A stretch of DNA of 64,000 nt. It comes from JBDRCC01 sp043822065 [NCBI: archaeon] (GTDB taxonomy: Archaea > Undinarchaeota > CAZHTU01). Both the position numbers and the translations under genes were made by a program. Position 1 is the stretch's first letter, and each line of letters opens with the position of its first letter. The notes under the pieces were generated by a model. That model was given only the letters and a program-made list of their open reading frames with translations, was not told the origin of the DNA and did no database searches. The stretch lies in contig JBDRCC010000007.1 of NCBI GenBank assembly GCA_043822065.1, positions 79,373 through 143,372 of the forward strand. Direction: 5' to 3'. Below are positions 22,752 to 64,000 of this stretch, in pieces.

Positions 22752-24722
22752 ATGGAATACTTTGCATACACACCGATTGCAGGGCTCCTCGCCATAGTCT
22801 TTGCGGGGTACCTGTCTTACATGGTTCTGAAAAAGGAGGAGGGCACTCAGAAGATGAGCGAGCTTTCCCATGCAATTCAGGAGGGCGCACTGGCTTACTT
22901 GACGCGGCAGTACAAAACACTGGCAGTCTTCATAGCAATTGTTGCAGTAATATTCGCGTATGCATTGTCGCCCATTGTCGCATTAGTATACCTTATAGGG
23001 ACCCTTTGCTCAATCGCCGCAGGATTCATAGGCATGTACGTCGCTACAAGGGCGAACACCAGGACGACAAACGCCGCGAGGACGAGCCTAAATTCCGCCC
23101 TCCAGATTGCATTCCGGGGCGGCTCTGTGATGGGAATGTCCGTCGTTGGGCTAAGCCTATTGGGGATTGGCGTGACCTTCTATGTCTTTAGGGACATACA
23201 GGTGGTCACCGGCTTCGCATTCGGTGCGAGCTCAATCGCACTTTTCGCCAGGGTCGGCGGGGGAATATTCACCAAAGCAGCTGACGTAGGTGCAGACCTC
23301 GTTGGCAAGATTGAGGCCCACATACCAGAGGACGATCCGAGGAATGCCGCAGTAATCGCAGACAATGTCGGCGACAACGTAGGCGACGTCGCAGGTATGG
23401 GCGCAGACCTGTTCGAATCATATTCCGGCTCAATAATCTCTGCTGTGGTGCTTGGCTCTACTGCAATGGTTATCGGGCAGTTCGGGGTAAACTCCGTTTT
23501 CTTCCCATTCTCGATAGCCATCATGGGCGTGCTTGCATCGATAGCTGGTGTCTTTGTAGTCCGGACAAAAGAGGGTGCAGACCCCCAGAAGGTTCTTAAC
23601 AACGCAACATTCTCAAGTGCGATAATCCTGGCAATCGGCGCGTACTTCCTCTCCAGATACCTCCTTCACAGCATTAGCCCGTTTATCGCCGTGGTCGCAG
23701 GGCTTGTTGCGGGAGTAGTCATCGGCCTGCTTACCGAATACTACACGTCAGCGGACTACAAATATGTCAAGGCGATAGCCAAAGCCGCCGAAACCGGCGC
23801 TGGCACAAATGTCATTCAGGGAATCGCCGTCGGCATGCAGAGCACCGCGCTTCCTGTGCTCTCAATCTGCGCAGCTATCCTGCTGTCCTACCATGTCGCA
23901 GGAATATACGGCATTGCAATGGCCGCGGTCGGAATGCTTTCCATAACCGGGATTGTTGTTGCGGTCGACTCGTACGGCCCGATTGCAGACAACGCTGGCG
24001 GGATTGCAGAGATGGCCGGGCTCCCGAAGTCCGTCCGGGCAAGGACAGACAAGCTCGACGCACTTGGCAACACGACAGCCGCAATCTCAAAGGGATTTGC
24101 CATCGGCTCTGCCGCGCTTACCGCACTCGCGCTGTTCATAGCGTTCGCACAGACTGCAAACATCAGCGTGATAAGCGTGCTGGACCCGACCGTCCTTGTC
24201 GGAATGCTCATTGGAGGCATCCTGCCATTCGTCTTCAGCTCAATGGCTATGAAGGCGGTGGGAAACGCCGCATTCGAGATAATCGAGGAGGTCAGGCGCC
24301 AGTTCAGAGAGATAAAAGGCCTGATGGAAGGAAAGACAAAGCCTGACTACGCCAGATGTGTTGACATATGCACAAAGTCCGCACTACGCGAGATGATTGC
24401 GCCCGGTGCGATGGCTGTTCTTGCCCCCCTTGCAATGGGCTTCCTCCTTGGCAAGGAGGCGCTCGGCGGCATGCTTGCCGGCGCTACAGTCACCGGCGTC
24501 ATGCTAGCAATATTCATGGCAAACGCCGGCGGAGCCTGGGACAACGCCAAGAAGTACATCGAATCCGGGCACCTTGGCGGAAAGGGGACGCCAACACACG
24601 ATGCCGCCATAGTCGGCGACACAGTCGGCGACCCGTTCAAGGACACAGCAGGGCCATCGCTGAACATCCTAATCAAGCTGATGGCTGTAATCGCCCTCCT
24701 GGCGGCGCCTCTGCTGGCTTAG
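22752..24722 (+). CDS. hppA: Membrane-bound ion-pumping pyrophosphatase (K+-dependent type)
   Basis: A 656-residue protein with about 15-16 membrane segments. It hydrolyses pyrophosphate and pumps H+ and/or Na+ outward. The catalytic loops are visible: [20 protein letters not shown] (residues about 200-220), the GNTTAAI region at G439-I445, and the final [15 protein letters not shown]. The residue after GNTT is Ala (A443), as in K+-dependent enzymes (Lys marks K+-independent ones). The fourth following residue is Ser (S446), where K+-dependent enzymes usually have Gly. Whether it pumps H+ or Na+ cannot be decided by eye. Confidence 0.95.
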
Positions 24723-26046: not shown

Positions 26047-26982
26047 TTATATACCCTTCGGCTTTCTGCCGAGCTTCCTAATCGAGGCGACAAAGAAGCC
26101 TGAGGTGTTGTTGTCCTGCGGCCATATCCGCAGGCACCTTTCGACCGTTGGGTTGTACTTTTCCCCCTCGAACTCAAGCACCGGTTCGCTTCTCTTAAGC
26201 CCGGGCAGGATTATCTCTTCTAGTTCTGATTTCTTGTGCCGCTTAAGGAGCCAGCTGACAACCGCCTCGTCCTCCTGCGGGTCGACGCTGCAGGTCGAAT
26301 AGACAAGCCGCCCGCCCTTTTTCAGCAGGCAGTAAGCCGAGTGCAGGATGCTCTTCTGGTCGTCCGAAAGCCTTTTTGCGAGTTCAGGCGACCACGTCTC
26401 GGCAGTTTCAGGGGACTTCTGCAATATGCCTGTGCCGGTGCAGGGCGCGTCAGCAAGCACCCGGTCGAACTGGATGTCCGTTAGCTGCTGGACTGAGCTC
26501 ATCTCCACTACGCAATTTGTAACTTTCATCCTCTCGACGTTCCTCCTCAGTATGGCAATCCTGTCCTGCCTGACGTCAAGCGCGACTAGTGCGCCCGTGT
26601 TCCCCATATACTGGGCTATCTGGGTGGTTTTTGCACCAGGGGAGGCGCACGCGTCAAGGACATTCTCACCCGGCATCGGACCGAGGACTACCGCAGGTAT
26701 CATGCTTGCGGCTTCCTGGACAAAAAAGTGCCCCTCTTTGTGGCCAGGTACGTTGCCGATGTCCTGGCGTTCGCCTTTCTTGTGGGCTATCCAAAAGCCT
26801 TCAGGGCACCATGGGACTGGGTCAAGATTCCATTCCGCCTCAATGGCACCCTTTAATTTTTTAGCAGATGTGGCTATGGTGTTGACCCGTATGGATTTTC
26901 TCAGCGGCTGGGCTATTGCAGATGAAAATTCTTCCCATGAGGTGAGCTTTTCGTATCTCGCTTTAAATTCTTCCATACTCAC
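26047..26982 (-). CDS. NSUN-family RNA cytosine-C5 methyltransferase
   Basis: A 311-residue NOL1/NOP2/Sun-type enzyme that makes m5C in rRNA or tRNA with SAM. The SAM-binding motif is LDACASPGAKTTQ, the first catalytic-region Cys is in ADAPCTGTGI, and the second in YSTCSVDPQEDE, as expected for the two-cysteine mechanism. The N-terminal 65 residues form the RNA-binding helical part with IRVNTI. The ATG at 26982 overlaps the flavodoxin stop (ATGA), so the two minus-strand genes are coupled. Confidence 0.93.
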   Translation of the reverse strand: MSMEEFKARYEKLTSWEEFSSAIAQPLRKSIRVNTIATSAKKLKGAIEAEWNLDPVPWCPEGFWIAHKKGERQDIGNVPGHKEGHFFVQEAASMIPAVVLGPMPGENVLDACASPGAKTTQIAQYMGNTGALVALDVRQDRIAILRRNVERMKVTNCVVEMSSVQQLTDIQFDRVLADAPCTGTGILQKSPETAETWSPELAKRLSDDQKSILHSAYCLLKKGGRLVYSTCSVDPQEDEAVVSWLLKRHKKSELEEIILPGLKRSEPVLEFEGEKYNPTVERCLRIWPQDNNTSGFFVASIRKLGRKPKGI

Positions 26983-27449
26983 TTGCGAAGCCTGGATGCA
27001 AACTCTCTGACCTTTGCCGTGTAGTTGCCCTCTGCGACCTCTTTGGCAGTTAGGTACAGGCTTGATATAGGGGGCTTCCCCAGCGTGGTTTCCATGTCAC
27101 TAAAAACGCGCTGCTCCGAAGCGCTTCCCTGGGTTGCGAAGAATGCAACTTTTTTGAGCTTCCCCCTGTTTTGGCTGATGTACGTCCTCACTGGGCTTGC
27201 CATCCGCCCGGCCCAGACTGGGGTGCAGAGAACCACAATATCATACTTTGATGGGTCCTTCTTCTGGCTGTTTATCAGCGGCAACTTCCTTGCCACGGCT
27301 TCCCTGCCCGATTTAAGATAGCCAATCAAGCCTGCGCGGCTCGCCGGGTCAGTTATCTCTTCAAGGTCTGAGCGAAGGGCTTTTGCAACTTCCTGCGCGG
27401 CTTTTTTCGTGAAGCCGGTTCTCGAATAAAAAACTGTCAGGGCTTTCAT
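26979..27449 (-). CDS. Flavodoxin-like protein
   Basis: A 156-residue protein with the FMN phosphate-binding loop YSRTGFTKK at residues 8-16, CTPVWAGRMASP (the 60s-loop-type FMN contact) and VAFFATQGSAS (90s-type loop). Flavodoxins shuttle low-potential electrons and can replace ferredoxin. It leads a two-gene unit with NSUN and diverges from tryptophanase; both start codons are about 25 bases from the same A/T-rich box at 27471-27480. Confidence 0.9.
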   Translation of the reverse strand: MKALTVFYSRTGFTKKAAQEVAKALRSDLEEITDPASRAGLIGYLKSGREAVARKLPLINSQKKDPSKYDIVVLCTPVWAGRMASPVRTYISQNRGKLKKVAFFATQGSASEQRVFSDMETTLGKPPISSLYLTAKEVAEGNYTAKVREFASRLRK

Positions 27450-50646: not shown

Positions 50647-51891
50647 ATGGTGAAATTTCAAAAGATTGCTCCTCCCAAAGAGGGGAAACCGATTACTTAC
50701 AGGGGAGACAAAATTGTCGTTCCGGACAATCCAATAGTGCCGCACATTGCTGGCGACGGGATTGGCCCGGACATCTCGAATGCTATGAGGATAGTCGTCG
50801 ACGCCGTAGTGAAGAAGGCATACGGCGGAAAAAAGAGGATTTCCTGGTTTGATGTTTACGCTGGCGAGTCCGCAATGGGCATGTACGGCACGCCGCTGCC
50901 CAAGGACACAGTTAATGCAATCAAGGAGTACAAGGTCGCGATAAAGGGTCCGCTCACTACTCCCGTCGGCGGCGGGATCAGGAGCCTTAACGTCTCCATG
51001 AGGCAGATGATGAACCTATACTCCTGTGTGCGCCCGGTCAAGTGGATAAAGGGCGTGCCCGCACCGGTCAAGGAGCCGGAAAAGCTGAACGTCGTCATAT
51101 TCAGGGAGAACACCGAGGACGTTTACGCCGGCATAGAGTGGAAGCAGGGCAGCAAGGAAGTGAAAAAGGTCATCAGCTTCCTCAAGAACCAGATGAAAGT
51201 CAATGTACGGTCCGACTCCGGAATCGGCATAAAGCCAATCTCGATTACCGGGACCAAGCGGCTTGTGCGCGCGGCGATAAAGTACGCGATAAAGCACAAC
51301 AAGAAATCCGTGACCATAGTGCACAAGGGGAACATTATGAAGTTCACCGAAGGCGCCTTTAGGGAGTGGGGATACGAGCTTGCTAAGGAGGAGTTCTCCA
51401 AGCAGGTTATTACCGAAGAGGACGTCAACAAGAAATACGGCGGGAAAATCCCTGCCGGCAAAATACTCTTAAATGACAGGATTGCGGACGCTATGTTCCA
51501 GCAGATCCTTCTCAGGCCGGACGAGTACGAAGTCATCGCACTCCCGAACCTGAACGGCGACTATCTGTCCGACGCCTGCGCAGCGCAGGTCGGCGGGCTT
51601 GGCATGGCGCTCGGCGCGAACATCGGGGACACCATTGCCCTGTTTGAAGCGACCCACGGCACCGCGCCGAAGTATGCCGGCCAGGACAAGGTAAACCCAG
51701 GCTCCATAATACTGTCTGCAAAGATGATGCTTGAGCACCTTGGCTGGAAGGAAGCAGCAGAGCTGATAATCCCTGCAATGGAAAAGACAATCGCGCAGGG
51801 CTATGTTACCTACGACCTTGCCCGGCAGATGGCAGGGGCGAAAGAGGTAAAGTGCTCGGAGTTTGCCAAGAAGATTGTCTCGAACCTGTGA
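50647..51891 (+). CDS. icd: Isocitrate dehydrogenase (NADP-type)
   Basis: A 414-residue isocitrate dehydrogenase of the E. coli type. Substrate motif: [19 protein letters not shown], with the serine and arginines that bind isocitrate. [14 protein letters not shown] and [19 protein letters not shown] contain catalytic Tyr and metal-binding Asp residues. [15 protein letters not shown] has the Lys-Tyr pair that prefers NADP over NAD. The reaction gives 2-oxoglutarate, CO2 and NADPH. Aconitase follows, so the two genes give citrate to 2-oxoglutarate, probably for glutamate synthesis. Confidence 0.96.
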
Positions 51892-51965
51892 GGGGCAAAT
51901 GAGGCTCTTACCTGTTTTTTCGTCGACGTTTTTTCCAGAGAAAAAAGGTCGTGTGAGGTGCTAAA

Positions 51966-53897
51966 ATGAAGGGAACGCTGGCTGAAAAGATACTGAAGGC
52001 GCACGTCGTCGATGGAAAGTTTGAGCCCGGGGCGGAAGTCGGCATACGGATTGACCAGACGCTGACCCAGGACGCAACCGGTACCATGGCCTACCTGCAG
52101 TTCGAGGCCATGGGGCTGCCGAAGGTGAAGACCGAGCTGTCCGTCTCCTATGTTGACCACAACACCCTCCAGACGGACTTCATGAACGCAGACGACCACA
52201 AGTACCTGCAGTCAGTCGCCGCAAAGTACGGCATAATCTTCTCGAGGCCTGGCAACGGCATTTGTCACCAGGTCCACCTCGAGCGGTTTGGCGTTCCCGG
52301 AAAAACTCTCCTTGGCTCTGACAGCCACACCCCCACAGGGGGAGGGCTCGGCATGATTTCAATCGGTGCCGGAGGGCTCGACGTCGCCGTCGCAATGGGC
52401 GGCGGCTCGTTTTACCTCAAGGTCCCGAAGGTCATGGGGATAAAGCTCAAGGGCAGGCTGAAGCCTTGGGTCTCCGCAAAGGATGTGATACTTGAAGTCC
52501 TCAGGCGGGTTGACGTGAAGGGCGGGGTCGGTTACATCCTCGAATACTTCGGGGACGGAGTTAAAACACTTACAGTGCCCCAGCGCGCGACCATAACCAA
52601 CATGGGCGCGGAGACTGGCGCGACGACCTCAGTTTTCCCTTCGGACGAAGTCACAAAGAAATTCATGAAGTCGCAGAGCAGGCTCAAGCAGTGGAAGGCG
52701 TTGAAGGCGGACAAGGGCGCGGAATACGACGAAGTTATTGAAGTCGACCTTTCAAAGGTCGAGCCGCTTGTTGCCCAGCCGCACAGCCCCGGGAAAGTGA
52801 CCACGGTGCGCGAGCTTGAGGGCATGCCAGTCGACCAGGTCGCAATAGGCAGCTGCACAAACTCATCCTATACCGACCTTTCCATCGTCGCTGCAACCCT
52901 GAAAGGCAAGACAGTTTCGCCCAACACAAGCCTGTGCATATCGCCAGGCTCAAGGCAGGTCATGAACACGATTGCAAAGCAGAGCTCGCTCAGCGCGCTC
53001 GTTTTAGCAGGGGCGAGGATGCTCGAGTGCACCTGCGGGCCGTGCATAGGCATGGGGCAGGCGCCGCCGAGCGCTGGCGTCTCTGTCAGGACGTTCAACC
53101 GGAACTTCGAGGGCAGGAGCGGGACCAAGGACGCGAAGGTCTACCTTGTCAGCCCCGAGACCGCGGCTGCAACCGCACTAAAGGGAAAGCTCACCGATCC
53201 GAGGAGGCTCGGCAAGTACCCGACTGTCAAGATGCCTGACAAGTTCGAGATTGACGACAGCATGCTGCTCAAGCCGCCCAAGGGCGGCAAGTCAGTCGAG
53301 ATAATCCGCGGGCCGAACATAAAGCCCCTTCCAATCAAGGAGGAGCTCCCGGACACGCTGTCCGGCGAGGTACTGCTCAAGGTTGAGGACAACATAACCA
53401 CAGACCACATAATGCCGGCAGGGGCGAAAATCCTTCCGCTTAGGAGCAACATACCCGCAATCAGCGAGCATGTATTCGAGCAGGTCGACAAGACATTTGC
53501 AAAGCGCGCCAAGGAAAAGGGCGGCGGAGTCATTCTCGGCGGGGAGAACTACGGCCAGGGCTCGTCAAGGGAGCATGCCGCGCTTGCACCGATGTACCTC
53601 GGAGTGAAGGCAGTAATCGCAAAATCCTTTGCGAGGATACACAAGGCCAACCTTGTGAACTTTGGCATACTTCCTGTGATCCTCAAGAACCCGGCAGACT
53701 ACGAAAAGATTTCACAGGGCGACATGCTGGAGATTCCAGGCGCCAGGAAATCCGTTGAGGGCGGAAGCAGGGAGCTCAAGGTCGTCAACAGGACCAAGAA
53801 CATCGAGATTCCAGTCGTGGCTGACTACTCAGAGCGCGAGAGGGAGATACTTTCCGTTGGTGGCCAGCTCAACTATACAAAGGCTAAAGCGAAATAG
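51966..53897 (+). CDS. acnA: Aconitate hydratase
   Basis: A 643-residue aconitase that isomerises citrate and isocitrate. The [4Fe-4S] ligands are Cys in IGSCTNSSYTD and the pair in CTCGPCIGMG; the substrate motif DQTLTQDATGTMAYLQF is at the start; the swivelling C-terminal domain has YGQGSSREHAALAP and SFARIHKANLVNFG. Length is normal for this shorter archaeal and mitochondrial-like form. It has a GAGGTG ribosome site. The 74-base gap behind icd has a T-rich stretch but no strong terminator, so the two genes may be one operon. Confidence 0.96.
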   Translation: MKGTLAEKILKAHVVDGKFEPGAEVGIRIDQTLTQDATGTMAYLQFEAMGLPKVKTELSVSYVDHNTLQTDFMNADDHKYLQSVAAKYGIIFSRPGNGICHQVHLERFGVPGKTLLGSDSHTPTGGGLGMISIGAGGLDVAVAMGGGSFYLKVPKVMGIKLKGRLKPWVSAKDVILEVLRRVDVKGGVGYILEYFGDGVKTLTVPQRATITNMGAETGATTSVFPSDEVTKKFMKSQSRLKQWKALKADKGAEYDEVIEVDLSKVEPLVAQPHSPGKVTTVRELEGMPVDQVAIGSCTNSSYTDLSIVAATLKGKTVSPNTSLCISPGSRQVMNTIAKQSSLSALVLAGARMLECTCGPCIGMGQAPPSAGVSVRTFNRNFEGRSGTKDAKVYLVSPETAAATALKGKLTDPRRLGKYPTVKMPDKFEIDDSMLLKPPKGGKSVEIIRGPNIKPLPIKEELPDTLSGEVLLKVEDNITTDHIMPAGAKILPLRSNIPAISEHVFEQVDKTFAKRAKEKGGGVILGGENYGQGSSREHAALAPMYLGVKAVIAKSFARIHKANLVNFGILPVILKNPADYEKISQGDMLEIPGARKSVEGGSRELKVVNRTKNIEIPVVADYSEREREILSVGGQLNYTKAKAK

Positions 53898-53948: not shown

Positions 53949-54419
53949 ATGAATACGACAGCAATACAAACCTATGTTGCATTGCTAGCAGTATGGTTTT
54001 TACTGGCTGGCGTAAACAGCCAGACAATCGCGTTTGGGATGTTCTCCTGCTTCATCATAGTCTATTCCACTGGTGCAAAGATTTTCAATAAGGGCGTATT
54101 GTGCAAGCTCCACCTAAAGCGGCTTTTCTGGTTCCTGAGGCACCTTCCATACTATATATGGGCTGAGATAATGTCTCACCTGCTCGTCCTAAGGATGATT
54201 TATCTAGGGGGCATAAAGCCGGAGATCATCGAGGTTCCCCTCCATACTCGAGAGGATCTGACGATAACTGCCACTGGAAACTCGGTGACAATGACGCCAG
54301 GGACTCTTACCCTTGTAGCTGACCAGAACAAGCTCTGGATTCACACCATCGACTCTGACCAAGACGTGGTTGCCGTCACCAAGAAGTTTGAGCAGAATTT
54401 TGAGGGGATGCTCGAATGA
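53949..54419 (+). CDS. mbhA: Mrp/Mbh antiporter subunit E (MbhA)
   Basis: A 156-residue membrane protein of the MnhE/MrpE family (two N-terminal helices, then a soluble domain with TLTLVADQNKLWIHTIDSD). It starts the operon. In Pyrococcus Mbh the matching subunit MbhA is part of the Na+/H+ antiporter-like arm. The ATG at 53949 is preferred over a TTG at 53931 by the TATA spacing. It overlaps the next start by four bases. Confidence 0.88.
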   Translation: MNTTAIQTYVALLAVWFLLAGVNSQTIAFGMFSCFIIVYSTGAKIFNKGVLCKLHLKRLFWFLRHLPYYIWAEIMSHLLVLRMIYLGGIKPEIIEVPLHTREDLTITATGNSVTMTPGTLTLVADQNKLWIHTIDSDQDVVAVTKKFEQNFEGMLE

Positions 54420-54661
54420 TGCTTGAAGCCGTTATTGTGATACTCGTGCTTGCGGCAATACGAGCGGTAATAGGCCCGACCGTGCCCGACCGGGTTGTTT
54501 CGCTTGACTCAGTCGGCTCTATAATGATATTCATTCTTGCGTTCATCGCGTATGCGTACAAGGAGTGGTACTTGGTCGACATAGCCCTCGTATATGCGTT
54601 CCTTTCGTTTGTGGCGGTAATCGCAATCTCGCGTTACTTGCGGGGTGATTGGAGTGCTTGA
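54416..54661 (+). CDS. mbhB: Mrp/Mbh antiporter subunit F (MbhB)
   Basis: An 81-residue, three-helix membrane protein. The conserved RAVIGPTVPDRVVSLDSVGS is the MrpF signature. It overlaps MbhA by four bases (ATGA) and MbhC by 17 bases, showing tight coupling. Confidence 0.9.
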   Translation: MMLEAVIVILVLAAIRAVIGPTVPDRVVSLDSVGSIMIFILAFIAYAYKEWYLVDIALVYAFLSFVAVIAISRYLRGDWSA

Positions 54662-54959
54662 ATACCTCTTGTGGCTTGCGGCATTTTTCATGTTCTCGGG
54701 AGCCATAGGCATGCTCCGCTTCCCGGATGTCTACAACAGGATACACTCAAGCACACTGATAACCGTCGGCGGGGCAATGCTCGGCATTTTCGTGCTTGCG
54801 ATAAAATCCTACCCGCTTTCACCGCAGACCTCGATAAAGATGCTCCTATTGATAGCCCTTCTAATCCTGACATCGCCGGTGTCCAGCCACGCAATTGCGA
54901 ACGCTGCGTACAAGTCCGGCATAAAGCCAGTGGGGGTGAAGAGAAGTGCTCCTGCTTAG
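54645..54959 (+). CDS. mbhC: Mrp/Mbh antiporter subunit G (MbhC)
   Basis: A 104-residue, three-helix membrane protein of the MrpG family, with SGAIGMLRFPDVYNRIHSSTLI and LLLIALLILTSPVSSHAIANAAY. The start is a GTG that overlaps the MbhB stop. It completes the E-F-G small-subunit set of the antiporter module. Confidence 0.9.
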   Translation: MIGVLEYLLWLAAFFMFSGAIGMLRFPDVYNRIHSSTLITVGGAMLGIFVLAIKSYPLSPQTSIKMLLLIALLILTSPVSSHAIANAAYKSGIKPVGVKRSAPA

Positions 54960-55188
54960 CCTTTACTATGTTGCCGTTGTCGCTATGATTGTGATGGCAG
55001 CCATAGCCATACACGCCAAGGACCTTCTCTACGCAGTCATAATCATGGGCGGCTCGCTTGTCATGCTCTCAATAGTTTTCCTTATGCTCAAGGCCCCGGA
55101 CGTTGCAATCACCCAGGCAGCGGTCAACGGTGCTCTCGGCACGGCGCTCTACGTCTTTGCAGTCCTTAAGACCAGGAGGGACGAATGA
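54946..55188 (+). CDS. mbhD: MbhD-like subunit (DUF4040, MrpA C-terminal part)
   Basis: An 80-residue, three-helix membrane protein. MGGSLVMLSIVFLMLKAPDVAITQAAVNGA is the DUF4040/MbhD signature, corresponding to part of the C-terminal region of MrpA. The start is a GTG overlapping the previous gene by 14 bases. It helps form the ion channel of the antiporter arm. Confidence 0.88.
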   Translation: MLLLSLYYVAVVAMIVMAAIAIHAKDLLYAVIIMGGSLVMLSIVFLMLKAPDVAITQAAVNGALGTALYVFAVLKTRRDE

Positions 55189-55463
55189 GGCGCGAATCCT
55201 ATCTTGTGCTCCTGCTTGTCTTTGCAGCCCTTTTCGCATACTACTCTGTTCAGTTCCCAGCCTTCGGCTCTTCAGAGTACCTTGGCAGGGACAGGACTGT
55301 TGCGGGGCACTACCTCGAGAACACACTAACCGACACTGGCTCGTGGAACGTTGTCAGCGCAGTCGTCTGGATGTACCGGGGCTACGACACGATGGGCGAA
55401 GTCACAGTGCTGTTTACCGCGGCGCTTTCAGTCTCCTTCCTGTGGAGGATGATGCAGAAATGA
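55185..55463 (+). CDS. mbhE: MbhE-like subunit
   Basis: A 92-residue protein with two membrane helices and a conserved loop containing YLENTLTDTGSWNVVSAVVWM and YDTMGEVTVLF, as in MbhE and the end of MrpA. Overlaps of four bases (ATGA) with both neighbours show it belongs to this operon. Confidence 0.88.
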   Translation: MRRESYLVLLLVFAALFAYYSVQFPAFGSSEYLGRDRTVAGHYLENTLTDTGSWNVVSAVVWMYRGYDTMGEVTVLFTAALSVSFLWRMMQK

Positions 55464-55873
55464 TAATCCTCAGGACAATCGGCAGGATAATGTTCCCGTT
55501 CATCCTTGTGATGGGCGTAGCGATGGGCGCGTATGGCCACCTTACTCCGGGCGGGGCATTCCCAGCGGGAGTCATAGTGGCGACCGCTTTCCTCCTATAT
55601 TATATTACTCAGGCAGGCAGCCTGCCTGGTGACCTTGGCGCCAAGCTCTCTGACGAGTACAATGTATCGTCCGCAGGCGTCATGGGCATAATGCTCGTTG
55701 TCCTGTCCGGGCTGGTCATCCTTATGGTCAGGCCGGAGCTTGCAATAAGGTACCCCGGCGAGCTGTTCTCTGCGCTCACCGTCTTTGGGCCCAACACCTG
55801 GGGGATACTCTCAATTGGCTTGGAGCTGATTGTGCTTATACTGTGCTTCATGCCAAAGGAGCAGGAAAAATGA
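55460..55873 (+). CDS. mbhF: Mrp subunit B / MbhF
   Basis: A 137-residue protein of the MnhB/MrpB family with four membrane helices. YGHLTPGGAFPAGVIVATAFL is the family signature. The ATG at 55460 overlaps the MbhE stop (ATGA); a longer frame starting at 55103 is an artefact of overlap with the upstream genes. Confidence 0.9.
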   Translation: MIILRTIGRIMFPFILVMGVAMGAYGHLTPGGAFPAGVIVATAFLLYYITQAGSLPGDLGAKLSDEYNVSSAGVMGIMLVVLSGLVILMVRPELAIRYPGELFSALTVFGPNTWGILSIGLELIVLILCFMPKEQEK

Positions 55874-56220
55874 TAGAGTACTCTGCCTGCTTCATCCTGA
55901 TGCTCATCGGGCTGTACGCCCTCCTCATGAAGGAGAATGTTGTAAAGAAGATAATGGGGCTTTCAATCTTCGGCTCCGGGATAAACCTTCTCTTGATAAC
56001 CCTTGGGTTCAGGCACACCTTCGAGACTGCGGTTATACCAATCATCGGCCCGGAGGTCTCGTACGCCGCGCTGGTCGCGCAGTCAGTCGACCCGCTTCCT
56101 CAGGTCCTTGTGCTGACCGCAATAGTCATAGACGTGAGCGTTGTCGCTCTGGCTCTTTTCCTCGGCATAAACGCCTACAAGCAGTTTGGTACGCTTAGGA
56201 TGGAGGAGTGGAAGGAATGA
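55870..56220 (+). CDS. mbhG: Mrp subunit C / MbhG (NuoK-like)
   Basis: A 116-residue, three-helix protein of the MrpC/NuoK family. FGSGINLLLITLG and VDPLPQVLVLTAIVIDVSVVALAL are diagnostic, with the conserved Gln-Val-Leu-Val-Leu-Thr segment. The ATG at 55870 makes the usual four-base overlap with the MbhF stop. Confidence 0.9.
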   Translation: MIEYSACFILMLIGLYALLMKENVVKKIMGLSIFGSGINLLLITLGFRHTFETAVIPIIGPEVSYAALVAQSVDPLPQVLVLTAIVIDVSVVALALFLGINAYKQFGTLRMEEWKE

Positions 56221-57662
56221 TTGACATAATCCTCGTCCCGTGGTTCGGAGCGTTTGCGACAGGAATTGTCTGCAGGTTTACGAAGAAGTTCGGCTACGTG
56301 CCGGTGCTTACATCGCTAATCGCGCTCCTGCTCACGATATGGCGCGCCCCAGCTTTCCTGACTGGCGTAGTGACCCTTGAGATATGGGCGCAGGCGCCTT
56401 ACGGAATCGCGCTTGAGGCGGACGCATTCAACGGGACAATGGCGCTCCTTGCCGGGCTCATATTCACCCTTGTCGCCATATACTCTGTGCGGTACATCGG
56501 CGAGGACGAGAAATACGTCCAGTTCTATGCCCTCTACCAGCTTTTTGTCGCAGGCACCCTTGGCATAATACTTACCGGCGACATCTTCAACATGTTCGTC
56601 CTGCTTGAGATTGCGTCAATAAGCTCGTATGCACTCGTCTCATACGCCCTTGACAAGGAGTCGGTCGCCGGCGGGCTCAGGTACATGCTCATAAGCGCCC
56701 TCGGCACGAGCATATTCCTCCTTGGCGTGACTTTCCTCTACGCGCTTGCGGGCACGCTTAACATTGCCCACCTCGTTGTCATGCTCCAGGGCGTCAACAC
56801 TCCTGTGCTGTTCGCGGCGTTCTCTTTCCTGTTCATAGGTGTTGGCGTAAAGGCTGCAGTCATCCCGCTCTACCTGTGGAAGCCTAAGGCGATTTCGGCA
56901 ACGCCAATACCTGTTGCTACCTTAGTCTCAGGCATCTCAACCGCGACAGCGGTTTACATCCTAATGCGCCTGACCTACACAATATTCTCGGTCTATTCAG
57001 GGATAATCTCCAGCATCCTGCTGTATGCGGGCGTCCTGACGATGCTTCTCGGAGCCTTTATGGCGCTCCTTGAGCCAGACGTCAAAAAAGTCCTTGCATA
57101 TTCCGGCATCAGCCAGGTCGGTTATGCATTCCTCGCTATTGGGTTTGCAACAGCTTCCGGAATCTTTGCAGGCATATTCCACATAATCAACGTCGTCCTT
57201 GGGGAGGCGCTCATATTCCTTTCCCTTGGCTACGTAATACTCCACACTGGTGAAAAGAACCTGCACAAACTTGGGGGGCTTGCCCCGAAGATGCCGCTCG
57301 CGGCTGCAGCATTCCTTTTCGGCTCGCTTTCTGTGGTCGGGGTTCCGCCCCTGAACGGTTTTGCGAGCAAGTGGTTGATATACCTTGAGGGCATAAGCAC
57401 CAACCACATCCTGGCGACCGCGGTCGCGCTTGTCGTCTCGGCGCTCACCCTGGGCTATTACATGAAGGCGTTTTCAGCCATATTCCTCGGGCCCGGCAAG
57501 TGGGCTGATTTCAAATCGGATTGGAGGCTTGACTACCCCATTCTCATACTCCTTGCATTGTGCCTGGTAATCGGCATTTATCCGCCGATAATCTATCCGC
57601 TACTTCAGCCAGCCACTGACGCACTGCTTACGGTTTCAGGCTACCTGGGGGTGCTGGCATGA
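56217..57662 (+). CDS. mbhH: Mrp subunit D / MbhH (ion-conducting, NuoM/N-like)
   Basis: A 481-residue membrane protein with about 14 helices, the large antiporter-like subunit. The conserved Glu sits in TGDIFNMFVLLEIASISSYAL and the key Lys in KAAVIPLYLWKPKAISATP; further Lys residues are in EPDVKKVLAYSGISQVGYA. It moves H+ or Na+ coupled to hydrogenase turnover. The ATG at 56217 overlaps the previous stop (ATGA). Confidence 0.94.
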   Translation: MIDIILVPWFGAFATGIVCRFTKKFGYVPVLTSLIALLLTIWRAPAFLTGVVTLEIWAQAPYGIALEADAFNGTMALLAGLIFTLVAIYSVRYIGEDEKYVQFYALYQLFVAGTLGIILTGDIFNMFVLLEIASISSYALVSYALDKESVAGGLRYMLISALGTSIFLLGVTFLYALAGTLNIAHLVVMLQGVNTPVLFAAFSFLFIGVGVKAAVIPLYLWKPKAISATPIPVATLVSGISTATAVYILMRLTYTIFSVYSGIISSILLYAGVLTMLLGAFMALLEPDVKKVLAYSGISQVGYAFLAIGFATASGIFAGIFHIINVVLGEALIFLSLGYVILHTGEKNLHKLGGLAPKMPLAAAAFLFGSLSVVGVPPLNGFASKWLIYLEGISTNHILATAVALVVSALTLGYYMKAFSAIFLGPGKWADFKSDWRLDYPILILLALCLVIGIYPPIIYPLLQPATDALLTVSGYLGVLA

Positions 57663-57958
57663 TAGGTATTGGGTACTACATGCTGGTTGTCTTCGGGCTG
57701 GTCTTTGTCATAGGCGGCTCGCTTTACCTCTTCATGTGCAAGCGCCCGACTGGTGCGAAGGGCAAGCAGACCTACCTCGGGGGGGAAGACCTCGAATGGA
57801 CAGGCACAGGTGCGAACTACTACCAGCAGTTTGAGAAGTCGCTGAAGCGGATTTATCCTGCGCTGGAATGCTTCCACAAGGAGGACGCAACATACTACAT
57901 CTTCCTTTTGTGTCTTACCCTCGCCGCACTGCTTCTCGGAGGCTACCTATGGATATGA
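57659..57958 (+). CDS. mbhI: MbhI-like linker subunit
   Basis: A 99-residue protein with an N-terminal and a C-terminal membrane helix and a soluble middle with YLGGEDLEWTGTGANYYQ. In Mbh complexes MbhI tethers the antiporter arm to the hydrogenase arm. It sits at the correct place, between MbhH and the small hydrogenase subunit, and overlaps both neighbours by four bases. Confidence 0.85.
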   Translation: MIGIGYYMLVVFGLVFVIGGSLYLFMCKRPTGAKGKQTYLGGEDLEWTGTGANYYQQFEKSLKRIYPALECFHKEDATYYIFLLCLTLAALLLGGYLWI

Positions 57959-58386
57959 CCAAATATCTGGCAAAGTCCCCCTGGCTTTTAGTTTGGGAGA
58001 CTGGCGGGTGCAACGGCTGCATAATTGAGACGCTGGCGTCGGTCACGCCAAGGTTCGACGTTGAGCGATTTGGAATACTCGCAAAGGGCACGCCAAGGCA
58101 CGCGGACATATTCATGGTTCACGGCACTCCGACGCGCCAGAACGCAAAGCGGCTCAAGCGGCTTTACGAGCAGATGCCAGACCCGAAGGTCGTTGTCGCA
58201 GTCGGCGCATGCGCGTCAGGCGGCGGCGTTTTCAAAGGATGCTATGGCACCCACGGGCCAGTTGAAAATGTCATACCCGTCGACGTTTACGTCCCTGGCT
58301 GCCCGCCAAAACCGGAAGCCATAATACTCGGCGTGGTCAAGGCAATAGACGTCCTAAAAAAGAGAGGTAAAAATGCCAAAAAATGA
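57955..58386 (+). CDS. mbhJ: Hydrogenase small subunit MbhJ (NuoB-like)
   Basis: A 143-residue NuoB-like protein that binds the [4Fe-4S] cluster next to the NiFe site. Cluster ligands: C19 and C22 (TGGCNGC), the Cys in GACASGG, and the Cys in VPGCPPKPEAI. The ATG at 57955 is chosen for the ATGA overlap with MbhI; an ATG at 57949 would add two residues. It belongs to the group 4 [NiFe]-hydrogenases. Confidence 0.94.
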   Translation: MTKYLAKSPWLLVWETGGCNGCIIETLASVTPRFDVERFGILAKGTPRHADIFMVHGTPTRQNAKRLKRLYEQMPDPKVVVAVGACASGGGVFKGCYGTHGPVENVIPVDVYVPGCPPKPEAIILGVVKAIDVLKKRGKNAKK

Positions 58387-58807
58387 ATCGTCTGCGATGA
58401 AGTACTTGCGCGGCATAGCCAAGAACGCAAAGGGGGACTTTGCTGTTGTCGCACCAGAAAACCTGCGGAAAGCAGTCCAGAAGCTAAAGGACAACGGCAT
58501 GTACCGGCTCATATGCATCACCGGCGTTGACACCGGAACTGCAGTTGATGCCATCTACACGCTCTCCTTCGACGGCACAATGTTCAACCTCAAGGTTCCG
58601 CTCAACCACAAGAAGCCGGAAGTCGAATCCATATCCGACCTCCTCCCAGCGGCTTCGCTCTATGAGCTGGAGCTGATGGAGATGCTCGGCGTCAAAGTGC
58701 TGAACCATCCAATGCCTGAAAAGCGCATGTTCCTCCCCGAGGACTGGAAACAGGGCCCGCCGCTGAGAAAAGCATTCATCCAGAAACTGGCAGGAGGGCA
58801 AAAATGA
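58373..58807 (+). CDS. mbhK: Hydrogenase subunit MbhK (NuoC-like)
   Basis: A 144-residue NuoC-type protein: DGTMFNLKVPLNHKKPEVESISDLLPAASLYELELMEMLGV is the family's core, in which the Glu-rich helix packs on the large subunit. It overlaps MbhJ by 14 bases and MbhL by four. It has no cofactors. Confidence 0.9.
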   Translation: MPKNESSAMKYLRGIAKNAKGDFAVVAPENLRKAVQKLKDNGMYRLICITGVDTGTAVDAIYTLSFDGTMFNLKVPLNHKKPEVESISDLLPAASLYELELMEMLGVKVLNHPMPEKRMFLPEDWKQGPPLRKAFIQKLAGGQK

Positions 58808-59976
58808 TAGAGAAAGAGTACTCCTACTTCCTTCCGATCGGGCCGCAGCACCCAGCGCTAAAGGAATCCATGCACCTGACCTTCAAGATGGAGGCGGAAG
58901 AGATAAAGGACATGGACTTCAACGTCGGTTACGTTCACCGCGGGATAGAGGGCGGCATGATGACCCGCTCTTACGACAAGAGCCTGTACCTTGCGCAGAG
59001 GATATGCGGAATCTGCAACCAGATACACGCAAGCGCCTACTGCCTTGCGGTCGAGAGGCTTGTTCCAACCTTCCAGGTTCCAAAGCGCGCAGAGTACATA
59101 CGGACCGTGCTCAATGAGCTGGAGAGGATCCACAGCCACATGCTATTCGTTGGAGTTGCAGCCCACGAGTTCGGTTTCGACACAGTTTTTATGTACACCT
59201 GGCGTGACAGGGAACTGATAATGCAGCTAAAGGAGAAGATTACTGGCAACCGCGTCACGAACGATATGAACTGCGTCGGTGGAATGAGGCGCGACATACC
59301 CAAAGAGCTGGAAAAAGAGCTTGAGGACGCAGTCGAGTACTTCTCAGAGCGTGCGGACTACTACGTTCGCGTATTTACCAAGGACATTTCCGTCCAGAAG
59401 AGGACAAAAGGGATTGGCGTCCTGAGCAAAAAAGATGCGCGGCGGCTGAACGCAGTCGGGCCGACTGCAAGGTCGTCTGGCATCGACTATGATATCCGCT
59501 CGGCGGATCCATATGAGGTATACAAGTATATCAAGTTCAAGCCGGTAATCCTCGAGGACGGCGATGTTTTTGCAAGGGTTGCCTCAAGGATTCTCGAGGT
59601 AAAGCAGGCGTGCGACGTCATAAGGCAGTGCCTGCCGCTCCCGGAGGGCAAGCTAAAGGAAGTCTTCCCAAGGAACGTCCCGCCAGCAGAGGCAGTTGCC
59701 TCCGTAGAGGCGCCGAGGGGGGAACTATTTTACTATGCGAAGTCAAACGGCACAAACATACCTGAGCGCATAAAGGTCAGGACGCCGACTTACGCCAACT
59801 TCCTCGCCCTCAAGCAGTTCACGGTTGGCTACAAGCTCGCAGACATACCACTCCTTGTCGCAAGCATTGACCCGTGCCTCTCCTGCACAGACCGGGTAAC
59901 GGTTGTTGACGAGAAGTCCACGCGGGTGCTTACGCATGCAGACCTCCAGGATATCGCAAAGGAGGAGTACAGATGA
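58804..59976 (+). CDS. mbhL: [NiFe]-hydrogenase large subunit MbhL
   Basis: A 390-residue large subunit of a group 4 hydrogenase. Both NiFe ligand pairs are intact: C68 and C71 in RICGICNQIH, and C358 and C361 in DPCLSCTDR. Complex I NuoD has lost these, so this is a real hydrogenase making or using H2. As in other Mbh enzymes, the C-terminal motif ends without a His-type processing site. It overlaps neighbours by four bases. No hydrogenase maturation genes (hyp) lie in the window. Confidence 0.96.
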   Translation: MIEKEYSYFLPIGPQHPALKESMHLTFKMEAEEIKDMDFNVGYVHRGIEGGMMTRSYDKSLYLAQRICGICNQIHASAYCLAVERLVPTFQVPKRAEYIRTVLNELERIHSHMLFVGVAAHEFGFDTVFMYTWRDRELIMQLKEKITGNRVTNDMNCVGGMRRDIPKELEKELEDAVEYFSERADYYVRVFTKDISVQKRTKGIGVLSKKDARRLNAVGPTARSSGIDYDIRSADPYEVYKYIKFKPVILEDGDVFARVASRILEVKQACDVIRQCLPLPEGKLKEVFPRNVPPAEAVASVEAPRGELFYYAKSNGTNIPERIKVRTPTYANFLALKQFTVGYKLADIPLLVASIDPCLSCTDRVTVVDEKSTRVLTHADLQDIAKEEYR

Positions 59977-60821
59977 TTGAGGGAATCCTGCTGATAGCCC
60001 TTGCAATCCCTGCCGGGCTGGTCCTTCAGGGAATAGACCGGAAGCTCACGGCCAGGATGCAGAACAGGATAGGTCCGCCAATCCTGCAGCCCTACTACGA
60101 TTTTATGAAGCTAATCCAGAAACGGGACATAATACCGGACAATGTGGGGGTTTTCTTCACAATTTTTCCGATACTGACCCTCGTAGCATCGCTTTGCGTA
60201 CTGCCATTCCTATCACTTATCTCATTCAAGGGCGACATAATAGTTACCCTCTACCTCCTGCTGATGATTTCAGCCTTCCTCGCCCTCAGCGGATTCGCAA
60301 GCGGCAGCCCGTTCGGCACGATTGGCGCATGGAGGGAGATAATGATGGTCATAGGCTACGAGCTCCCCCTTGTTGTTGCAGTTGTCGCAGTAATAATGGA
60401 CGCTGGCTCGCTTTCGCTTTCCCAGATAGCATCCTCTGCCCACTTCCTGCCGTTTGCTTTCGCAGCCTTCCTGATTTCGACGCAGGCAAAGCTTGCCAGG
60501 TCACCATTCCACATCCCGGATGCAGAAACCGAGATAGTTGCAGGCATACACACTGAATACTCCGGCGTCCGCCTTGCCATGCTGAACCTGTCCGCGGCAG
60601 TCGACCTGTTCATAATGGTAGTTCTTGCCGTGATGCTTTTCCTCAGCCCGCCTACCTGGTACTACTTTGCAGGCTACAGCCTTGCGATTCTTTTCGTCCT
60701 GACCACAGTAAAGGTCATAACCGGAAGGCTCAGGATAGACCAGATGATACGCTTTTTCTGGTTTATTGTCGGGCCAATCGCGCTGATAGACCTGCTCCGC
60801 GTGCTTTTCCTCGCCGCTTAA
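59973..60821 (+). CDS. mbhM: Membrane anchor subunit MbhM (NuoH-like)
   Basis: A 282-residue membrane protein with eight or so helices. RMQNRIGPPILQPYYDFMKLIQK and the acidic ARSPFHIPDAETEIVAGIHTEYSG loop are diagnostic of NuoH/MbhM, which links electron transfer to ion movement. It ends the operon here. The expected following gene, the ferredoxin-like MbhN (NuoI-like), is missing: the ATP synthase genes start 53 bases on. Confidence 0.94.
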   Translation: MIEGILLIALAIPAGLVLQGIDRKLTARMQNRIGPPILQPYYDFMKLIQKRDIIPDNVGVFFTIFPILTLVASLCVLPFLSLISFKGDIIVTLYLLLMISAFLALSGFASGSPFGTIGAWREIMMVIGYELPLVVAVVAVIMDAGSLSLSQIASSAHFLPFAFAAFLISTQAKLARSPFHIPDAETEIVAGIHTEYSGVRLAMLNLSAAVDLFIMVVLAVMLFLSPPTWYYFAGYSLAILFVLTTVKVITGRLRIDQMIRFFWFIVGPIALIDLLRVLFLAA

Positions 60822-60841
60822 TCGAAAACGCTCACCGCGAA

Positions 60842-60851
60842 CATATTAAAA
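60842..60851 (+). promoter_or_regulatory. TATA box of the A-type ATP synthase operon
   Basis: CATATTAAAA is centred 27-28 bases before the ATG at 60874, giving a separate leaderless promoter for the ATP synthase genes. Confidence 0.5.
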
Positions 60852-60873
60852 CCACTTAGACCTAATTTCGGCT

Positions 60874-61188
60874 ATGGAAACAATCGACACTATCAGGAAG
60901 ATAAGGGAAGCTGAAGCGGCTGCCAGGAAGGACATAGAGAATGCCAATCGGCAGGCGGCAGAAATTGTTGCCAGCGCCGATATTGATATAGCCCGGCTCA
61001 AAGGCTCTGCTGCAAAGGATGCCAGCGCCCAGGCTAAAAAGCTGTTTGCAGAACATACTAAAGCGGGCAAGGCGGAAGCTGGCAAGGTGCGTACGCGCTC
61101 AAAAAAGGAGCTCGAGTCAATTAGAAAGAAGGCCAAGGCAAGGCTCCCTTTGGTTGTTTCCTCTCTCGCGGAGCAGGTGGTAGCTTGA
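60874..61188 (+). CDS. atpH: A-type ATP synthase subunit H (AhaH)
   Basis: A 104-residue coiled-coil peripheral-stalk protein (IRKIREAEAAARKDIENANR) of the AhaH/V-type G subunit family. It forms the stator with subunit E. Its stop overlaps the start of subunit I. Confidence 0.88.
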   Translation: METIDTIRKIREAEAAARKDIENANRQAAEIVASADIDIARLKGSAAKDASAQAKKLFAEHTKAGKAEAGKVRTRSKKELESIRKKAKARLPLVVSSLAEQVVA

Positions 61189-63101
61189 TTCGCCCTGCCA
61201 GGATGAGCAGGTTTGACGCAGTAGTTTTAGAGCAGGATCGGGACAGAGTTGTAGATGCGCTTCACGAAAACGGGATAGCCCAGATTGAGGACCAGAGCCA
61301 GAGGCTAAGGGGAAAAGAGTGGTCCGAGCTGGCGCGCGCAGGCGCTTCCGAGAGGAGCTCAAACGCATCTTCTCGCCTTTTGAGGGTGAAATGGCTGCAC
61401 GACTTTCTTTCTTCTGCAACCACGCAGCCTCCTGGCAAGTTTGACGTGCTGATGCAGTACTTAAAGCCGGACATTCCTACTCCTAAAGAAATACCGAAGC
61501 GCGGTGTCTTTCGCATGGTCGATTCCCTCCTTGCTGAGGCAGAGCCAAAAATAAAGTTGCTTGAAGGGAAGCATTCTGCAATTCAGTCCGAGAAGGCTAA
61601 GCTCCAGAAGACAATCGATGATGCGGAAAGGATAAAGGGCATACCGTTCGACGTGAGCTGGCTTGGCGAGTCAGAATATACCCTGACCGAGGCAGGAGTC
61701 ATCTCCAAGGAGCATCTCCCTGACCTAAAAGACCTGCCTGGGGAGGTAGCTATTGACAGCTCTGGCGAGTCTGCGGCAATACTCATTTGCTACCTCAAAA
61801 TCGACAGGGAAGCCGTGTCAAAGCAGCTAAGGAAGACTGGCTTTTCCCAAGTGCTCCTCTCCGGCTCTGGAACGCCTGCTGAACTCATAGAGCGCTCCAG
61901 AAGCCGCCTCGGCGAACTTGAATTAAACGAGAAAACCCTCCTTGCAAAGATTTCATCCACTGGAAAAAAGTATCTTGACGGGCTTGCGGCCTGCAGGGAG
62001 CTCCTGGAGATTGAAAAGGCCCGCGGCGAAATATCGTCCGCCTTTGCGAAGACCGAGAAAACCGTCCTCCTAAGCGGTTTTGTCCCCTCCGGCCAGGCGG
62101 AGAGCCTAAGGGAAATTGTGAAGAAATCTTCTTCTGACAGGTACTATTTTGCACATTCCGATGCGGACGACGCCCCCGTGCTGCAGAGCAACCCAAGGTT
62201 TCTGAAGCCTTTCGAGCAGCTAACTGAGATGTTTGCAGTCCCAAAATACAACGAGATAGACCCGACCTTCCTGCTTGCGCCTACCTTCGTAATCTACTAC
62301 GGCCTTATGCTCACAGATGCAGTATATGGCGTAATTCTCTTTGCCCTGAGCGTCCTCCTGCTCAAGACCTATGGAAAGGCCAACAAGGCGGCAAAGGACT
62401 TCAGCTGGGTGCTAATCGCGTGCGCAGTATCCACTATAATATTCGGCGTCCTTACCGGCGGCTACCTGGGCGACATAATGGCGTATCTATTTGGCGCAAA
62501 CCCAGCAGACCTGGCGTTATGGGTTGACCCGCTTACTGACCCGATAGTCATCCTGAAGCTTGCAATCATTATCGGGATACTCCATGTCGACACCGGCGTT
62601 TTTGTCAGCCTCTTGGAAAACCTTCGCCAGAAAAACTTCCGGGCGGCTGCCGTCGACAACGCAGTATGGTTCATACTGCAGGCTGGGATTCTTATGTACT
62701 ACCTCGGGATGCGGGCAGGGCTTGTTCTCATGGGCATTAGCGTGCTCCTGCTGTTCTACGGCTACAAGGTGATGGGGATAATGCACATAACCGGGTTTAT
62801 GGGCGATATCCTTTCCTATGCTAGGCTTTTGGCGCTGGCTCTTGCGACCGGAGGGATAGCCATGACTGTCAACCTGCTGGCAAAGATGGTCTTTGCAGTC
62901 CCTTACGTTGGAATAGCCCTCGCAGCCGTGGTCCTGCTGGTCGGCCACACCTTCAACTTCATCATGAACGCATTAGGCTCTTTCATCCACAGCCTCCGCC
63001 TGCACTACGTTGAGTTTTTCGGGAAATTTTACTCGGGCGGCGGAAGCAAGTTTTCGCCATTTAGGGCGGAGCGCAGGCTGACGAAATTGGAGGCTCGTTA
63101 A
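61185..63101 (+). CDS. atpI: A-type ATP synthase subunit I (a)
   Basis: A 638-residue protein: a cytoplasmic N-terminal half with long coiled helices, then a membrane half with about seven helices including NEIDPTFLLAPTFVIYYGLMLTD-type features (PTFLLAPTFVIYYGLML) and the conserved Arg-containing SYARLLALALATGGIA; the Arg faces the rotor ring. The start is a TTG at 61185, overlapping the AtpH stop; homologues begin with the same RPARMSR sequence, so the ATG 18 bases later is less likely. It carries ions across the membrane with the c-ring. Confidence 0.94.
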   Translation: MIRPARMSRFDAVVLEQDRDRVVDALHENGIAQIEDQSQRLRGKEWSELARAGASERSSNASSRLLRVKWLHDFLSSATTQPPGKFDVLMQYLKPDIPTPKEIPKRGVFRMVDSLLAEAEPKIKLLEGKHSAIQSEKAKLQKTIDDAERIKGIPFDVSWLGESEYTLTEAGVISKEHLPDLKDLPGEVAIDSSGESAAILICYLKIDREAVSKQLRKTGFSQVLLSGSGTPAELIERSRSRLGELELNEKTLLAKISSTGKKYLDGLAACRELLEIEKARGEISSAFAKTEKTVLLSGFVPSGQAESLREIVKKSSSDRYYFAHSDADDAPVLQSNPRFLKPFEQLTEMFAVPKYNEIDPTFLLAPTFVIYYGLMLTDAVYGVILFALSVLLLKTYGKANKAAKDFSWVLIACAVSTIIFGVLTGGYLGDIMAYLFGANPADLALWVDPLTDPIVILKLAIIIGILHVDTGVFVSLLENLRQKNFRAAAVDNAVWFILQAGILMYYLGMRAGLVLMGISVLLLFYGYKVMGIMHITGFMGDILSYARLLALALATGGIAMTVNLLAKMVFAVPYVGIALAAVVLLVGHTFNFIMNALGSFIHSLRLHYVEFFGKFYSGGGSKFSPFRAERRLTKLEAR

Positions 63102-64000
63102 TGGTGTCTGAAGGGGCCGTGCTTGCGGCGCTTGGGGCGGCAATAGCAGTCGGCGGCGCAGGTCTCGCAAGTGGCATGGGTGCTGGCATCAGCGGAGCGG
63201 CGGGCGCGTCAGTGGTAGCTGACGACCCAAAGAAGTTCGGCCTTGCGATAATATTTCAGGCAATTCCGCAGACCCAGGGCTTTTACGGCTTCCTCATCGG
63301 CATTCTCATACTGTTCGGCACAGGAATCCTTGGCGGGGCTGGCGTCGAGGTGCCTATTGCAGTCGGGCTTGCGTGCGTCGGCGCAGGGCTCGCAGTCGGC
63401 ATATCCGGATTCTCCGCAATCGGCCAGGGGATAGTCTCCGGTGCTGCTGTCTCCGAGGCAGCCAGGCGCCCGGGGATGTTCGGCAAGGGGATGGTCTTTT
63501 CCGTACTTCCTGAAACCCAGGCAATATACGGCCTTCTCATTTCAATATTAATCCTATTTTTTACTGGGGTTATCGGCGGTGCAGGGATGCCTGACATCCC
63601 CCTCGCTGCCGGGTTTGCAGCAATAGGCGCAGGGCTCGCAGTCGGGCTTGCCGGGTTGTCGGCAATCGGACAGGGAATTGCCGCGGCGGCAGGCGTCGGA
63701 GCGACTGCTGAGAAACCAGAGGCGTTCGGGAAGTCAATGGTATTTTCCGTACTTCCGGAGACCCAGGCGATATACGGGCTGTTAATCTCAATTTTGATAC
63801 TTTTCTTTACAGGAATTATCGGCGGAAATTACCTTCCGCAGATGGAGCTACCAATTGGAATCGCCGCAATAGGCGCAGGCATGGCAGTTGGTTTTGCAGG
63901 GCTTTCTGCCATAGGGCAGGGCATTGCGGCGGCAGCAGGCGCAGCAGCCACTGCGGACAAACCCCATATGTTCGGCAAATCAATGGTCTTCTCCGTACTG
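63101..64000 (+). CDS. atpK: A-type ATP synthase rotor subunit K/c, multi-hairpin (partial)
   Basis: The frame starts at an ATG overlapping the AtpI stop by one base (TAATG) and runs off the right edge; 300 residues are visible. It contains four consecutive two-helix hairpins of about 81-82 residues. The ion-binding Glu sits in LPETQAIYGLL of hairpins 2 and 3 (E138, E220), and the matching position of hairpin 4 lies just past the edge. In hairpin 1 the site reads IPQTQGFYGFL (Q57), so it lacks the carboxylate, and its helix-1 Gln is also replaced by Ala. Ordinary K subunits have one or two hairpins. Confidence 0.9.
   Translation, partial: MVSEGAVLAALGAAIAVGGAGLASGMGAGISGAAGASVVADDPKKFGLAIIFQAIPQTQGFYGFLIGILILFGTGILGGAGVEVPIAVGLACVGAGLAVGISGFSAIGQGIVSGAAVSEAARRPGMFGKGMVFSVLPETQAIYGLLISILILFFTGVIGGAGMPDIPLAAGFAAIGAGLAVGLAGLSAIGQGIAAAAGVGATAEKPEAFGKSMVFSVLPETQAIYGLLISILILFFTGIIGGNYLPQMELPIGIAAIGAGMAVGFAGLSAIGQGIAAAAGAAATADKPHMFGKSMVFSVL

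Follow-up and report, generated by a model that had tools for sequence, protein, structure and literature searches.

The 64,000-nucleotide stretch of archaeal DNA analyzed here (contig JBDRCC010000007.1; hereafter the window) carries, at positions 53949-60821, 13 consecutive open reading frames (ORFs) on the + strand, which encode MrpE, MrpF and MrpG followed by MbhD to MbhM. Judged from its sequence, this operon is a Pyrococcus-type membrane-bound hydrogenase (Mbh), a group 4 [NiFe] hydrogenase, without mbhN beside it. In Mbh, electrons enter through MbhN/NuoI, a subunit that is also conserved among the relatives of complex I. We consider it likely that mbhN was separated from the operon and is encoded elsewhere, its product serving the complex in trans. 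That another small archaeal genome, G879, keeps a lone MbhN far from a truncated operon suggests that the mbhN of the window organism was probably moved rather than lost.

All 13 reading frames of the operon are open, and the four ligands of the [NiFe] site of MbhL, C68 and C71 in the N-terminal and C358 and C361 in the C-terminal CxxC motif, are present. The ORFs, the family matches (Table 1) and the ligand cysteines thus bear out the preliminary description, which had counted 13 of the 14 Mbh subunits with intact NiFe ligands. We take the gene order to be that of the Pyrococcus Mbh operon. The 14-subunit Mbh of Pyrococcus furiosus (Protein Data Bank [PDB] entry 6CFW) has the MrpE-F-G and MbhD-M set in common with the window and the NiFe ligands are conserved; the window operon differs in that it lacks MbhN and that its MbhI is a weak family match. 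The PDB chains nearest to the window MbhL and MbhJ were 6cfw_L (E 6.8e-81) and 6cfw_J (E 7.7e-50), respectively. The window MbhL has a C-terminal extension after SCTDR, which is absent from the 6cfw chain.

Downstream of MbhM, which ends at 60821, the place expected for mbhN is occupied by a gap of 52 bp (60822-60873, + strand) that leads to the next ATG at 60874. No remnant of MbhN was seen in this junction. A six-frame scan of the window for the motif CxxCxxC(2-4)C returned a single, spurious match and no MbhN-type protein, and a profile built from the MbhN genes of 16 relatives found nothing among the window ORFs of at least 30 amino acids except a match at E 0.02 inside the GltX gene. Together, motif scan, profile and inspection of the junction confirm for the 64-kb window the earlier statement that no MbhN follows MbhM. 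ATP synthase genes do begin there, as had also been stated, although the spacing is 52 bases and not 53. The match of the first of these ORFs, an H-like coiled-coil subunit, to PF16999 was equaled by the score of an unrelated coiled-coil family. The gap contains a TATA-like ATATTAAAA, 23-31 bases before ATG 60874, and a similar spacing was seen, by eye and without statistics, before the IF2, LeuRS, enolase and S8e genes of the window. The presence of this element at the usual spacing suggests that the ATP synthase operon has its own leaderless promoter. GC content hardly changes over the junction, with 0.52 in one flanking 1-kb bin and 0.53 in the other, and is thus continuous. At third codon positions (GC3), it is 0.548 in atpH and 0.633 in atpI, as against 0.64-0.70 for MbhM, MbhL and MbhH, a small discontinuity.

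How unusual this arrangement is was assessed among relatives of MbhL from named-species genomes (loci L001-L080, at least 80 relatives) and from other archaeal genomes. A scan of genome contigs with a single MbhL protein returned no relative; an alignment-based scan returned at least 80. No DPANN-titled genome was among the MbhL matches listed from the alignment-based scan of named species, and no MbhL relative was found in the viral contigs scanned. The MbhN profile, whose 16 seeds come from L001-L080, was run on 169 loci (L001-L140 and L172-L200; 20 of them replaced by wider stretches), and MbhN was counted when it scored at least 45 bits and lay on the same strand no more than 6 kb away. 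MbhN adjoined MbhM at 125 loci, lay elsewhere in the neighborhood at 27 and was not found at 17. As 288 bases or fewer remain after MbhM or MbhL in 13 of these 17 loci, they are uninformative. An MbhN-like gene was thus present within 6 kb at 152 of 156 informative loci and absent from 4, counts that are restricted to the top matches of the individual searches, leave the window out, include the 16 seeds, which match by construction, and take two or three loci from some genomes. The four are L043, L089/L166 (genome G419), L183/L201 (G914) and L190/L202 (G879). In L043, from a Methanophagales metagenome-assembled genome, the contig ends 621 bases after MbhM without an MbhN; the ORFs found there resemble, by eye, a toxin-antitoxin pair. 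L166 (G419:C103:5000-23028) has homologues of MbhK and MbhL alone, that of MbhL at 49%; J, M and N were not detected over the 18 kb analyzed. Since MbhN in the operon is usual but not universal in the family, we did not take it as defining Mbh. No paper with a displaced or missing MbhN as its subject was found among the titles and abstracts listed in searches of open-licence papers.

The main contig of G879 (C1; 832,779 bp, 6,400 bases of which are N) was read whole and, as the listed genome size is 0.8 Mb, represents most or all of the genome. Its Mbh operon (L202, at 24.6-34.6 kb) has the order E-F-G-D-E-F-G-H, J, K, other genes, L, M, without N; the genes that separate K from L are C39-peptidase-like. 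An MbhN-type ORF of 114 amino acids was detected at 168061-168402 on the - strand (hidden Markov model E 3.2e-18, 64.7 bits), and the next-best matches to the MbhN profile were ordinary ferredoxin-like ORFs with at most 33 bits. The score of 64.7 bits is below the 86-141 bits of one set of MbhN proteins from relatives and inside the 54-118 bits of another. The ORF begins with an N-terminus of the YP...P..FRG type, contains the CxxCxxCxxxCP motif twice and could be aligned with ten MbhN genes from relatives; its neighbors are, by eye, hydrolase-, cupin-, nitroreductase- and rubrerythrin-like. The motifs and the alignment, together with the unrelated neighbors, identify it as an orphan MbhN that lies some 133 kb away from the operon. 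A weak MbhJ match 3 kb from the orphan was rubrerythrin-like by eye and hence gives no indication of a second complex at this site. The operons of G879 and of the window both end at MbhM without MbhN; they differ in that G879 has the split between K and L and a known orphan MbhN. A BLAST search of the G879 main contig gave no match at E 1e-3 to the window ATP synthase I, aconitase, isocitrate dehydrogenase, CorA or flavodoxin.

Other small archaeal genomes were reached through the kin of a Thermococcus genome, the kin of G213 and the phyla of G321, G319 and G329. Of 156 genomes of the G329 phylum, 35 had an MbhL match with an E value of 1e-70 or lower; 13 of 371 genomes of the G321 phylum had an MbhL match (identity at most 40%), as did none of 6 in the phylum of G191. 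MbhN is adjacent to the operon in other members of the G329 phylum, for example G896, G905, G919 and G920. The gene order detected in G335 (L170), G783 (L168) and G905 (L212) is that of the window but ends L-M-N; an extra ORF is present in the operons of G335 and G783, and in all three MbhI has diverged too far to be scored. Displaced copies, both counted among the 152 and read by us as displacement under way, were found in G891, where a 2-hydroxyacid dehydrogenase gene lies between MbhM and an MbhN 951 bp further on, and in G904, where the distance is 3,208 bp and an ORF that matches no Pfam family intervenes together with genes for a UDP-sugar dehydrogenase and a nucleotidyl transferase. The operon of G914 (L201) reads E-F-G-D-E-F-G-H-J-K-L-M, and N is absent from the remaining 3.9 kb of the contig. 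It ends at MbhM, as the window operon does, but M24 peptidase and NUDIX genes, not ATP synthase genes, lie downstream. The best score of the MbhN profile in the part of G914 that was read, 36.9 bits, belonged to an ordinary ferredoxin. The comparison of operons among relatives, which the preliminary description had proposed for close ones, yielded operons terminating at MbhM (G879 and G914) as well as displaced N genes (G891 and G904).

In a tree of MbhJ, MbhL and MbhM combined (47 tips, 813 columns, LG+G4 without a model test, midpoint root), the window formed a separate long branch in a clade with an ultrafast bootstrap of 91, together with all 9 sampled operons from the kin of G213, 13 of the 14 from the G329 phylum (L187 fell elsewhere) and L083. 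From the listing of relatives, the nine operons would belong to one phylum with G213. G914, G904, G891 and G879 were placed on separate branches, several of them among operons with an adjacent N, and the adjacency of MbhN was thus probably lost more than once. The tree sisters of G914 and G879 (L206 and L210) stop inside or at MbhM, so that they cannot show a shared loss. The best matches of other window proteins were 62% for aIF2-gamma (G360), 50-51% for IF-2 (G214 and G385), 46% for LeuRS (G213 and G321; 51% over part of the protein in G332) and 36-41% for ATP synthase I (in genomes mostly of 1.3-1.8 Mb). Because these matches fall in different groups, we claim no phylum for the window; no close relative was found in the genomes searched. 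From the presence of Mbh relatives in small genomes, the organism may be a DPANN-like archaeon.

We also asked how far the subunits of the window complex depart from those of relatives. For MbhJ, the comparison used columns at least 90% conserved in 99 relatives, each with an MbhN-like gene in its locus. The four cluster cysteines, conserved in 98-99 of the 99 relatives, are kept, and the window protein deviates at none of the 28 conserved columns, the leave-one-out value for the median relative being also 0. MbhJ thus appears ordinary rather than remodeled, and an altered docking face, which we considered, left no sign in these columns. This conservation is compatible with continued use of MbhN by the complex but is no proof of it. 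MbhL has Ser at residue 22, where all 102 relatives with a residue at this position have Pro; these 102 also all have the neighboring Glu21. In MbhH, 12 of 49 conserved columns deviate (45 relatives, without a leave-one-out control), including an invariant His replaced by Tyr222 and an Asp conserved in 91% replaced by Lys227, whereas E134, K215 and K388 are kept.

That MbhN is encoded elsewhere was one of two possibilities raised in the preliminary description; the orphan of G879 and the displaced genes of G891 and G904 speak for it, and are no proof for the window genome itself. Several observations weigh against a displaced mbhN. No MbhN gene of the window organism was seen in the 64 kb, and no MbhN-type gene was found in 625,686 bases (61 loci) of the listed 0.8 Mb of G914, which speaks somewhat against displacement. 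The analogy is distant, since the window operon is not nested with that of G879 or G914. Moreover, in leave-one-out comparisons the window deviates at 4 of 19 conserved columns in MbhK (rank 11 of 15), 6 of 77 in MbhL (rank 98 of 105) and 5 of 42 in MbhM (rank 23 of 28), a divergence that could be explained by the long branch alone. A true loss of MbhN, with a soluble 2x[4Fe-4S] ferredoxin or a flavodoxin docking on the exposed face of MbhJ to feed its single cluster, would agree with the lack of MbhN in the window and with the part of the G914 draft that was read, in which a like arrangement is found without MbhN. We nevertheless think it rather unlikely: an MbhN-like gene within 6 kb is the rule at informative loci (152 of 156), G879 keeps an orphan MbhN with an operon truncated alike, and the conserved pattern of MbhJ is unaltered. 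The window does encode a flavodoxin, as had been noted (Table 1), but no positive evidence was found for the earlier suggestion that another carrier such as this one serves the small subunit. Its gene is not linked to the operon, lying about 26.5 kb away on the opposite strand, and has no match on the G879 main contig. It seems improbable to us that a hydrogenase of the complex I superfamily works here without a 2x[4Fe-4S] subunit of the NuoI/MbhN type, a soluble carrier directly feeding the MbhJ cluster. If it did, its electron-entry module would be shorter than in the Mbh relatives examined.

Two further explanations appear to us very improbable. A faulty join at about 60.82 kb might have put the ATP synthase operon in the place of MbhN; the window record may be a draft or a metagenome, and the small drop of GC3 in atpH could be read as a discontinuity. 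However, GC content is continuous there, the 52-bp gap has its TATA-like box at the usual spacing, and other genomes also have no N after M. Alternatively, the complex may have ceased to be a ferredoxin-driven hydrogenase, because it is decaying or because its partner or direction has changed. The Ser at residue 22 of MbhL (against Pro in 102 of 102) and the deviations of MbhH (12/49) and MbhL (6/77, rank 98 of 105) could be taken in this sense, but 13 open frames, intact NiFe and FeS ligands and an MbhL that retains its extension after SCTDR speak against it.

If mbhN was displaced, it may lie beyond the ATP synthase genes or be unlinked to the operon. Ferredoxin would then reduce MbhN, and electrons would pass through the [4Fe-4S] cluster of MbhJ to the [NiFe] site of MbhL to form H2, a route via MbhN that is taken from the Pyrococcus Mbh as presented in PMC11228991. 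The energy released by H2 formation would drive ion movement via MbhH/MbhM and the Mrp module, and the ion gradient could be used by the neighboring ATP synthase. Genes for isocitrate dehydrogenase and aconitase (50647-53897) are found directly upstream of the Mbh operon on the same strand. The order isocitrate dehydrogenase-aconitase-Mbh-ATP synthase would fit a disposal of electrons by H2 evolution together with ion-driven ATP synthesis.

As to the ATP synthase itself, the frame for the proteolipid subunit K (63101-64000) is open to the end of the window and contains at least four fused hairpins, the first with Q (PQTQGFYGF) and the second and third with E (PETQAIYGL), a pattern that we take to be reminiscent of Na+-binding rotor subunits. 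The window also encodes a further ion pump, a membrane pyrophosphatase (22752-24722; PF03030 E 3.2e-279) that is 52% identical to that of G879. A hydrogenase beside an ATP synthase was also seen in L167 (G374:C79:46000-64000), in an arrangement unlike that of the window: an MbhL cluster that includes three antiporter subunits resembling MbhH lies head to head with an ATP synthase I gene, the outermost detected genes of the two being about 1 kb apart. A group 4e [NiFe] hydrogenase of 'Candidatus Fermentimicrarchaeum limneticum' (Micrarchaeota) is reported in PMC8561730, where Kadnikov 2020 is cited; by this description, it resembles the window system in that a small archaeon has a membrane hydrogenase of group 4.

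Two start sites in Table 1 involved a choice. A TATA-like stretch 22-31 bases upstream of ATG 53949, with the spacing seen by eye at other genes of the window, indicates that this start of MrpE, as given in the preliminary description, is probably right. The MbhJ ORF is open from 57868, and ATG 57949 agrees better with homology.

Table 1. Coordinates of the hydrogenase subunits, the following ATP synthase genes and the flavodoxin in the window.
Feature	Coordinates	Strand	Basis
MrpE-like subunit	53949..54419	+	NCBIfam; ORF could also begin at TTG 53931, ATG 53949 preferred
MrpF-like subunit	54416..54661	+	NCBIfam E 9.2e-18
MrpG-like subunit	54645..54959	+	TIGR01300 above cutoff, E 6.7e-26
MbhD-like subunit	54946..55188	+	NCBIfam E 5.9e-18
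MbhE-like subunit	55185..55463	+	NCBIfam E 2.5e-19
MbhF-like (MrpB type) subunit	55460..55873	+	NCBIfam E 1.2e-11
MbhG-like (MrpC/NuoK type) subunit	55843..56220	+	NCBIfam E 5.4e-27
MbhH, antiporter-like (MrpD/NuoN type)	56208..57662	+	NCBIfam E 3e-90
MbhI	57659..57958	+	NF053600 E 3.6e-4, 21 bits (cutoff 95), weak; also position and length
MbhJ, NuoB-type small subunit, one [4Fe-4S]	57949..58386	+	Family matches, four cluster Cys
MbhK (NuoC type)	58373..58807	+	PF00329 E 1.8e-23
MbhL, [NiFe] large subunit	58804..59976	+	Family and PDB match, four ligand Cys
MbhM (NuoH type)	59973..60821	+	PF00146 E 1.4e-66
ATP synthase H-like coiled-coil subunit, opening the next operon	60874..61188	+	PF16999 E 0.002, weak; position before subunit I
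ATP synthase subunit I/a	61185..63101	+	PF01496 E 1.8e-24
Flavodoxin	26979-27449	-	Flavodoxin_4 E 1.8e-10

Thus, mbhN has become detached on several branches of small-genome archaea while the operon is otherwise intact. Because this detachment recurs, a missing mbhN beside an Mbh operon is by itself no evidence for a new electron donor. The genome of the window and that of G914 are among the places where a real MbhN-less complex could exist. If MbhN was indeed lost there, the loss would show how little of an electron-input arm an ion-pumping hydrogenase needs.

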